A DNA stretch of 52,855 nt from an uncultured Clostridia bacterium. Lineage in GTDB: Bacteria; Bacillota; Clostridia; Lachnospirales; Anaerotignaceae. The translations under genes were made by a program, and so were the position numbers. This document shows positions 8,722 through 25,350 of the stretch, in pieces; within the stretch, counting starts at the first letter, position 1, and the number at the start of each line of letters is the position of its first letter. Where the stretch lies: assembly GCA_944377425.1 (NCBI GenBank), contig CALWEX010000097.1, positions 1 to 52,855 on the forward strand, written 5' to 3'. Under the pieces are notes generated by a model. The model searched no databases and was not told where the DNA came from. It saw only the letters and a list, made by a program, of their open reading frames with translations.

Positions 8722-9055
8722 CACTTGTTATTATTTTAACATATAACTTATCAGTGTTATAATTATTATATTTTCTTATTTTTTCTAACACTTTATATTG
8801 TTTTCGATGTTAGAAAACTATTAACATAGCTATGTGGATTTGATGTTAATTAATTGTTTATAACAGCCAACATTTTTAAGCCATGTTAAAATTGTGGACA
8901 ACCGGTAAATTAATATAAAACTTATATACATCATTATCCAGAAATAATTTTACGCTTTTTTATGGCTTTTTTATACTTATCAACAAATTAACAGCCACTA
9001 CTACTATGATTACTAAAAAGAACTTATTTATATATGTATTGCGCACAGAAGGGAG
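8722..9055. other. oriC: Origin of replication oriC, downstream part (dnaA-dnaN spacer)
   Basis: This AT-rich spacer corresponds to the side that carries the unwinding element in Bacillus-type bipartite origins. A perfect TTATCAACA box lies at 8977-8985. Weaker ones are TGTGGATTT (8831-8839), TGTGGACAA (8892-8900) and TTATCCAGA (about 8934-8942). No gene is visible. Unwinding activity here is inferred from position. Confidence 0.65.
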
Positions 9056-23208: not shown

Positions 23209-24267
23209 GTGTATTATAACTTTTTTGTAAATAAAACTTCTTCTATACTGCTTGATAACGGCTTTTATAAAGGTCCGGAGTATAATGGAGAACAGTGGTA
23301 TTTAAAAATAATGCCGCCAGTTTTATACGCTATACATATAACAGATAGTAATAATTATACTCAAGATAGTAAATATATTTCATATATCAATAGTTTATAT
23401 GAAAAATTAAAGGACTGTCGGTGCGAAAATTTAGTATGTCTTAATATTAATTTTAGTATAGATATTACTTCTAAAAACGAAAAAGAGTTTGCTTATAACT
23501 ATTTTTCTAACTATTTTTATAACTCTTTTTCTAACTTAGATGTAAATCCAAATATACATAATGTGTATTGGATATTTAGTGCGGATGAAGAAAGGCTGCT
23601 TTTTCCAAAAGGGCAGCCTACAAAATTAAAAGGAATAGAGCTGTATTTTAATTGGAAAAAGTATGAAAAAAGCGAAACAAGCAGCATTAAAATATATGAT
23701 AATAAACCTTATATAACTTATGCTGTTATAGTAATAAATGTTTTGATTTGGGCATATATAAATTTAAAAGGCGGAGAAAATTTTATATATAATTTTGGTA
23801 CAAGCCGGCAGGGGCTTTTGTCAGGACAAGTTTATAGGCTTATAACAGCTGTGTTTATGCATCAAGAGCTGGGGCATTTGTTCTTTAACTGTTTTTCGCT
23901 TTATATATTCGGTCGAGAAACAGAGAGAATACTTAGCAGGTTTAATTTTGTAGTTATATACTTGTTAACAGGCTTTTTGGCATCACTTTTCAGCGCATTA
24001 ATAGGCGGAAGCTTAGCTATAGGCGCATCTGGGGCAATATTTGGTGTAATAGGTGCTTTAGCAGCTGTAAGCCGTATGAAGGCATACGAAGCGCAGTTAA
24101 TGGATTATTTTACTTTAGTTCTTTATATAGCAGTTTCTATATTAATAGGCTTTTCAGACCCAAGAATAGATAATACAGCACATGTATTTGGTGCTTTAAG
24201 CGGATTTATAAGTCAATATTTGTATTTTAAATATAAATACTCGCATAAAAATAATGAGCAAAAATAG
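23209..24267 (+). CDS. Rhomboid-family intramembrane serine protease
   Basis: The protein has a soluble N-terminal domain (about 165 residues, not recognised) followed by six or more membrane segments. The rhomboid motifs are HQELGHLFFN (218-227), the catalytic GASG with Ser274, and His325 in AHVFGALSG. Rhomboids cleave within membrane helices. The GTG start at 23209 has GAGGTGAT upstream. The DNA after its stop is the dense DnaA-box cluster. Confidence 0.9.
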   Translation: MYYNFFVNKTSSILLDNGFYKGPEYNGEQWYLKIMPPVLYAIHITDSNNYTQDSKYISYINSLYEKLKDCRCENLVCLNINFSIDITSKNEKEFAYNYFSNYFYNSFSNLDVNPNIHNVYWIFSADEERLLFPKGQPTKLKGIELYFNWKKYEKSETSSIKIYDNKPYITYAVIVINVLIWAYINLKGGENFIYNFGTSRQGLLSGQVYRLITAVFMHQELGHLFFNCFSLYIFGRETERILSRFNFVVIYLLTGFLASLFSALIGGSLAIGASGAIFGVIGALAAVSRMKAYEAQLMDYFTLVLYIAVSILIGFSDPRIDNTAHVFGALSGFISQYLYFKYKYSHKNNEQK

Positions 24268-24301: not shown

Positions 24302-24750
24302 TTATCAACAGCTTTTTTGTGGATAAAGTGCATAACTTTTAAAATTAGTTTACATAAAATATAAACATTTGGTTGGCAAAAAAAATTACGATTTTATTTT
24401 TATTGTAAAAACCTTGTAAAATAAAGGTTTTTAAGGGTCAAAAACAAAAATGCTGATAAAAATGGGCTTAAATATGTTTACAATAATTTTTGCCGTCGAT
24501 GTTGATTTATTTGTGGAGTAAAAATGGGGAAAACATCGAATTTAATATGGATATGTTGATAAATTTAGATAAATTAAATTAATTACTATATTTTGAGTTT
24601 AAAATGATGTTTTAACCAATATAATGTGGTAAAATAAATGTTGATAACTTAATTGTATGTTGATAAATAAAAGTTATCAACAAAATTATGTGTATAAGAC
24701 TTTATTATTGTTGATAAGTGACGTTATTTTAGAATTAAATATGTTGATAA
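24302..24750. repeat. Dense cluster of DnaA boxes
   Basis: Eight perfect TTATCMACA sites lie in this gene-free stretch: 24302-24310 (+), 24318-24326 (-, the TGTGGATAA form), 24554-24562 (-), 24639-24647 (-), 24658-24666 (-), 24674-24682 (+), 24709-24717 (-) and 24742-24750 (-). One-mismatch sites occur at 24451-24459 and 24689-24697. The whole spacer 24268-24792 is AT-rich and has no gene. DnaA should bind here strongly, whether for titration, for regulation of the flanking genes, or as an auxiliary origin element. Confidence 0.85.
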
Positions 24751-24792: not shown

Positions 24793-25350
24793 ATGGACAA
24801 TTTGGAAAATATGAAAAACGAATACATACAAAAATACAATGATAGAAAACTTGTTTTTGGTGAAGGCAAAACAGACGGCGGAATAATGCTTATAGGTGAA
24901 GCTCCTGGTGGTGAGGAGGAAAAAATGGGCAGGCCGTTTGTTGGCAAAGCCGGAAAAAATCTGGATGAGTTTATAGAATTGGCTGGATTGAAAAGAGAAG
25001 ACCTTTATATAACAAATGTGGTAAAATTCAGACCTACTTCAATAAGTGAAAAAACAGGAAGGAATGTAAATCGTACCCCAAGCAGAGAAGAAATAGAGGA
25101 TTTTGTGCCTTTGCTTAAAAATGAGATAAGCACTTATAAGCCTTATCTTATAGTAACATTGGGTAATGTGCCTTTAAAAGCTGTAACAGGAAATAATCGC
25201 CTTTCTATAGGTGATTGCCACGGAAAAATTATGCAGTTAGAAGGTTTAAATATATACCCGCTTTATCATCCTGCATCGGTTATATATAACAGAAACCTTA
25301 AAAATGTGTATGCTTCAGATGTAAAAAACATAAAAGAATATATAAAATAA
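24793..25350 (+). CDS. Uracil-DNA glycosylase, family 4/5 type
   Basis: This enzyme removes uracil from DNA. The 185 residues show motif A GEAPGGEEEKMGRPFVGKAG (about 36-55), the ITNVVKFRP segment and motif B YPLYHPASVIYN. The four cysteines that hold the iron-sulphur cluster in many family 4 enzymes are not evident, so cluster binding is doubtful. The ATG has AAAGGGGAAA upstream. The last DnaA box lies only 42 bases before the start, so DnaA could influence its expression. Confidence 0.88.
   Translation: MDNLENMKNEYIQKYNDRKLVFGEGKTDGGIMLIGEAPGGEEEKMGRPFVGKAGKNLDEFIELAGLKREDLYITNVVKFRPTSISEKTGRNVNRTPSREEIEDFVPLLKNEISTYKPYLIVTLGNVPLKAVTGNNRLSIGDCHGKIMQLEGLNIYPLYHPASVIYNRNLKNVYASDVKNIKEYIK

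Follow-up and report, generated by a model that had tools for sequence, protein, structure and literature searches.

The rhomboid-UDG locus

The window analyzed here is a 52,855-nucleotide stretch of DNA (contig C97) from a 2.4-Mb genome, assembled in 107 contigs, of an uncultured Clostridia bacterium. It encodes a rhomboid protease, a family-4-type uracil-DNA glycosylase (UDG), and the initiator DnaA (Table 1). The 525-bp noncoding gap from the rhomboid stop (24267) to the UDG start (24793) houses eight exact matches to the DnaA box TTATCMACA, all within 449 bp (positions 24302 to 24750) and six of the eight on the minus strand. Because domain IV of the window's DnaA carries GGRDHTT, the standard DnaA box is its expected target.

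Table 1. Coordinates of the genes, DnaA boxes, and promoter-like motif in the window
Feature	Position	Strand	Evidence
dnaA	7396..8721	+	Domain IV GGRDHTT signature
Rhomboid protease gene	23209..24267	+	PF01694 E=1.2e-31; synteny
Distal module box I', TTATCAACA	24302..24310	+	Box search, genus alignment
Distal module box II', TTATCCACA	24318..24326	-	Box search, genus alignment
Weak box abutting II', TTATGCACT (2 mismatches, conserved in genus)	24327..24335	-	Alignment
Middle box, TTATCAACA (TGTKGATAA in 6/6 genus members)	24554..24562	-	Alignment
Promoter-like TTTAAA-16-TATAAT	24598..24625	+	Motif search; TATAAT-type block conserved in alignment
Proximal box, TTATCAACA	24639..24647	-	Box search, alignment
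Proximal box, TTATCAACA	24658..24666	-	Box search, alignment
Proximal three-box core, box I, TTATCAACA	24674..24682	+	Alignment, locus scan
Proximal core box II, TTATACACA, 15 bp after I	24689..24697	-	Alignment, locus scan
Proximal core box III, TTATCAACA, 20 bp after II	24709..24717	-	Spacing invariant across genera
Box preceding UDG ribosome-binding site, TTATCAACA	24742..24750	-	Box search, alignment
Family-4-type UDG gene	24793..25350	+	PF03167 E=1e-32; TIGR00758 above cutoff

The original prediction, made from this DNA alone, described eight exact boxes in about 450 gene-free bases, most in the same orientation, some 15 kb from dnaA, with three perfect boxes upstream of that gene and one downstream. 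Our recount agrees throughout: 15.6 kb separate the end of dnaA from the first box of the cluster, and the exact boxes flanking dnaA start at 6923-, 7203+, and 7227- upstream and at 8977+ downstream. Near matches had also been mentioned; a ninth good site, box II of the proximal core at 24689-, does exist, with one mismatch to TTATCMACA and a fit to TTATNCACA, but it had been missed, as had the fixed spacings and the conservation described below.

The boxes include two modules. A distal pair (24302/24318) lies just past the rhomboid stop; it is convergent, with starts 16 bp apart and a 7-bp spacer, and is invariant in all six genomes of the genus. A proximal core of three boxes (24674/24689/24709) stands before UDG, and five of the six genomes of the genus keep the last box of the cluster, beginning at 24742, with ≤1 mismatch. 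AT-rich blocks conserved in the genus (GTTTACATAAAATAT at 24342 to 24356, GTTTACAATAATTTTT at 24475 to 24492, and CTATATTTTG at ∼24582 to 24593) lie beside boxes.

As for the UDG itself, it is of family-4 type yet has a single cysteine. Since the 12 orthologs that we checked carry only 0 to 2, the family-4 iron-sulfur cluster is probably absent from the window's enzyme. A second UDG paralog retains three cysteines in its aligned part.

Box density against background

Genome wide, exact TTATCMACA occurs 129 times, compared to 132 for the reversed control; because the total is no higher than the control, ∼0.02 boxes are expected per 449 bp. Among the boxes listed (all but ∼5 of the genome total), the next densest site holds 3 in 390 bp, on contig C2, and the cluster is without near equal elsewhere in the 2.4-Mb genome; equal density does not recur at many loci. 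Spacings of 15/16 bp and 20 bp occur within the window only in the cluster.

The AT-rich context noted originally was borne out (GC of the rhomboid-UDG spacer, 0.22), and composition this skewed might by itself make an AT-rich 9-mer dense by chance. In 3,000 draws from a first-order Markov model of this spacer, however, boxes averaged 0.036 and never exceeded 2, against 8 observed, and the boxes are kept in relatives even where the GC content of the upstream region is 45 to 53%. The model and the conservation in GC-richer genomes together rule out chance or AT-richness, to which we assign a negligible probability.

Conservation and geometry across the family

We assembled a family set of 58 genomes, located the UDG gene in 53 of them, and read ≤700 bp upstream in each. 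The position of the cluster between the rhomboid protease and family-4-type UDG genes holds family wide, and the rhomboid 3′ end directly precedes the element in nearly all relatives. The convergent pair TTATCMACA-N7-TGTKGATAA (≤1 mismatch) is present in 47 of the 58 genomes, with one to four copies per genome and nearly always at this locus; its reversed control gave zero matches in 56 genomes. Exact convergent pairs were found in 31 of 58 family genomes; outside the family, 10 of 334 genomes of the order have one. Close to the start of UDG, a third box oriented like box II usually trails the pair.

A locus scan scored this layout over 27 box positions: I(+), II(-) at 14 to 16 bp, and III(-) at a further 20 bp. 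With ≤3 mismatches of 27, it is present in 44 of 55 loci, while all 1,100 shuffled loci showed ≥6. In the scan, a convergent spacing of 16 bp occurs in 46 loci from 14 genera and spacings of 17 to 22 bp in none; the same-direction spacing is 20 bp in 43 loci from 13 genera and never 13 to 18 or 22 to 30 bp. In the window's genus, among others, boxes I and II of the proximal core start 15 bp apart. The core spacings are retained in 13 to 14 of 17 genera, with inter-box sequence that is near random. A genome-wide search for the three-box motif (≤3 mismatches) gave matches in 34 of 58 genomes, almost all of them at this locus, and none in the control; a class-wide search for the exact three boxes found them in 4 of 393 genomes. 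Followed to the same locus in relatives, the boxes are thus conserved across the family at fixed spacing.

Spacing also appears to be held between modules. In genera g33, g7, and g11, 16 genomes have distal box II' and proximal box II exactly 158 bp apart, and three others have 156 or 160 bp between them, whereas identity between g33 and g7 is 0.74 in the boxes and a near-random 0.32 in the spacer. The 158-bp distance corresponds to ∼15 helical turns, and a looped or continuous complex may span the two modules.

The arms of the distal pair make an inverted repeat immediately past the rhomboid stop codon, as would a hairpin or terminator of the rhomboid gene whose likeness to DnaA boxes is incidental. 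However, in 21 of 36 exact pairs the variable position breaks the complementarity although each arm remains a perfect box, neither a terminator-like site nor an Rfam match was found, and the same-direction boxes at fixed spacing would be left unexplained. We consider this reading highly improbable and reject it because of the noncomplementary arms and the lack of a terminator-like site or Rfam match. Judged by sequence comparison, the cluster is real, conserved, and constrained in geometry: it is a spacing-locked element, more than a dense patch.

Several occurrences of the boxes elsewhere deserve mention. One genome (G018; L196, 1111 to 1175) has a second three-box motif near an SmpB-like gene. 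In another (G054, contig C1), the UDG locus with its boxes appears in an identical second copy (311145 and 464918), reflecting either duplication or an assembly artifact. Two genomes, G423 and G492, contribute to the class-wide search one contig each, sharing a single sequence. G259 of family f5 (L220, 8576 to 8632) has, between divergent genes, an exact copy of the three-box layout extended by a fourth box (+0, -16, -36, -48). The N7 convergent pair also precedes a thymidine kinase gene in family f22 (L213 to L218; G205, G217, G131, and G233); tdk was confirmed downstream of the pair in L213, L214, L217, and L218. The distance from the convergent pair to dnaA is about 93 to 105 kb in G205, G217, and G223.

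Boxes and UDG can occur apart

Boxes do not always accompany UDG: genomes with boxes and no UDG exist, as do genomes with UDG and no boxes. In G055, a genome of one contig, there is no UDG match; the exact three boxes after the rhomboid gene are retained, as is the distal box at 158 bp, in a spacer with an identity of only ∼0.3 to that of its genus. In G065, UDG is absent from both the locus region and the family UDG search. Its boxes, at 0, 16, 28, and 37 bp, fall where rhomboid and ATPase-like genes converge, in the 190 bp that separates the two, so that there is no downstream gene for them to control; this genome is 78% complete, with a contiguous box locus. The element is INDEPENDENCE from UDG, as these two UDG-less genomes retain boxes. 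Conversely, genus g3 has rhomboid and UDG genes and no boxes, and G020 likewise has UDG and no boxes; the element is therefore dispensable. Boxes and UDG are separated by ∼570 bp in G019 and by an additional gene of ∼220 codons in G010. Because boxes and UDG occur apart and extra sequence can intervene, the association of the element with the rhomboid 3′ end is no looser than that with UDG. In genera g3 and g6 (L111, L128, L130, and L149), the rhomboid and UDG genes flank an extra gene of ∼220 to 237 codons; boxes at extra-gene loci are absent in g3 and follow the rhomboid gene in G010.

These observations bear on whether the element is primarily a DnaA-controlled UDG promoter, one of the readings offered originally and one that we regard as possible, at odds clearly short of even. 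DnaA on the proximal boxes would block transcription just past the −10 motif, and UDG would be expressed once free DnaA falls after initiation. The proximal boxes stop just short of the UDG ribosome-binding site, and the TTTAAA-16-TATAAT motif stands before them, which places a predicted transcription start just ahead of these boxes. In g33, a nearly invariant TATTGGGGTATACATAAAAAG directly precedes box I; it is missing in the UDG-less G055 and G065. Repair and nucleotide genes are among the known targets of DnaA regulation (PMC11317965, PMC8203912), and at DnaA-regulated promoters (uvrB, nrdA, mioC, and dnaA), as at the promoter predicted here, boxes lie beside a repair or nucleotide gene. 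The promoter match is weak, since the region holds 10 such matches (this one scores 10/12) versus 6.5 expected. Also counting against a primarily promoter role are the distal module at the rhomboid end, lying as much as 490 bp away from the window's UDG gene, and the sequence that intervenes before UDG in G019 and G010. Unlike at the known promoters, boxes here outlast the gene in two genomes: boxes and spacing survive UDG loss in G055, and G065 still has its boxes, set between converging genes. A pure UDG-promoter role is thereby ruled out, and the promoter cannot be the whole explanation. What stands of the original suggestion is a plausible second role, control of UDG where that gene is present, given the TATAAT upstream of the proximal boxes and, in other genera, a conserved promoter-like motif at that place; in UDG-bearing genomes, the promoter-like motif beside the boxes favors a transcriptional role. 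The fixed spacing would fit cooperative binding for any purpose, repression included.

Position relative to the origin

Where dnaA and a box-bearing locus share a contig, most are ∼5 to 55 kb apart, with the locus on either side of dnaA and in both orientations. Box-bearing loci lie farther away in G041 (∼115 kb) and G063 (∼125 kb), and the second identical copy in G054 is ∼200 kb from dnaA; in G007, which has lost the boxes, UDG is ∼350 kb away. We treat proximity to the origin as supporting evidence only, because inherited synteny and origin-symmetric inversions may confound it.

An auxiliary replication origin, also proposed originally, would be in keeping with a noncoding, AT-rich cluster of many DnaA boxes, and in three genomes outside the family the same convergent pair adjoins dnaA. 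However, the sign of the GC skew switches near 7 to 8 kb, at dnaA, and not at the cluster. Moreover, a DnaA-trio, TAGTAGTAG, which likely marks the unwinding site of the origin, lies between dnaA and dnaN (8998 to 9006, minus strand); it is the only one in the three regions scanned, and the cluster has none. With both marks in the dnaA region and neither at the cluster, we set the auxiliary origin aside as very unlikely.

Comparison with known DnaA-regulating sites

In Escherichia coli, sites outside the origin turn DnaA off (datA) and on (DARS). The DARS sites, located about halfway from the origin to the terminus, promote ADP dissociation from DnaA, and DARS2 has IHF and Fis sites; datA requires an IHF site between its DnaA boxes and acts through DnaA-ATP hydrolysis.

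By kind, the nearest relative of the cluster appears to be the Bacillus subtilis DnaA-box cluster (DBC), and we take as our best reading that it works likewise. DBCs are noncoding, contain ∼4 to 11 DnaA sites outside oriC, and in several cases lie near the origin; deletion of six DBCs causes early initiation (PMC4447404, PMC13220808). The cluster here is similarly a dense, noncoding set of boxes outside oriC and near the origin of a Bacillota genome, with box density far above background. One DBC lies downstream of two genes, gcp/ydiF (PMC4447404), as does the box site in G065. Here, in contrast, each genome has a single main cluster, strictly spaced and beside rhomboid and UDG genes.

The layout resembles that of E. 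coli DARS cores, in which box I points against II and III, the spacing is the same in DARS1 and DARS2, and I and II are in head-to-head contact (PMC5742627). The MG1655 sequence agrees with this description: both cores read +, -, -, the boxes starting at 0, 14, and 26. The same topology, with convergent boxes I and II and fixed spacing, is found in the window (24674+/24689-/24709-) and in 44 of 55 loci, but with starts at 0, 15/16, and 35/36. The genes downstream of DARS1 and DARS2, uvrB and mutH, likewise serve DNA repair (PMC11317965), a suggestive parallel to UDG. If the element were a true DARS-type site, DnaA bound head to head on boxes I and II would drive ADP release and reactivate DnaA. 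We think this unlikely: start spacings are 15 to 16 bp and 20 bp rather than the 14 and 12 bp of both E. coli sites, the element is mostly origin proximal and not midway to the terminus, and, according to a 2026 review, B. subtilis lacks datA/DARS loci and is not known to control the DnaA nucleotide state (PMC13220808). Because its starts differ despite the shared topology, we reject strict membership and class the element as at most DARS-like.

With datA, the likeness is one of setting: both are noncoding box clusters near the origin. datA lowers DnaA activity, and we propose a similar effect here. A Gram-positive counterpart of DARS/datA is conceivable, albeit doubtful. In such a counterpart, a spacing-locked head-to-head DnaA complex, conserved in the family, would change DnaA nucleotide state or activity in trans, and its layout would be convergent with that of DARS cores. 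Our literature search found neither a DnaA-box cluster with a uracil-DNA glycosylase nor DARS in Gram-positives or Clostridia.

A proposed DnaA-regulating site near the origin

The explanation that we prefer is that the cluster is a chromosomal DnaA-regulating site near the origin whose primary role is control of initiation; we put its probability at roughly 0.57, a figure that overlaps with our estimate for a true DARS site, as the latter would be a special case. Its architecture (a convergent pair, a third box 20 bp on, and often a second module) is nearly unique in each genome. Since this fixed layout recurs in most of the family, even without UDG, the element probably helps to control the timing of chromosome copying, although loss of UDG is seen in two genomes, one of them 78% complete. 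The original idea of a titration or reactivation site thus gains support from uniqueness in the genome, fixed geometry, proximity to the origin in most relatives, and persistence beyond UDG.

We propose that DnaA would bind boxes I and II face to face and then spread along the same-direction boxes. The resulting defined complex would keep DnaA from oriC or alter its activity. Because the site is so close to oriC, it would be duplicated soon after initiation, so that the sink would double each round and restrain reinitiation. Where UDG is present, the same complex may also couple its expression to the replication cycle, since the apparent UDG promoter sits just upstream of the proximal boxes.

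Implications

The element suggests that in Bacillota an ordered layout of DnaA boxes, beyond their density, is under selection outside the origin. It also suggests a link between the initiator DnaA and a base excision repair gene. Present once per genome, exact and testable in its geometry, found family wide in gut Clostridia, and separable from UDG, it would offer a concrete substrate for the question of DnaA nucleotide-state regulation.
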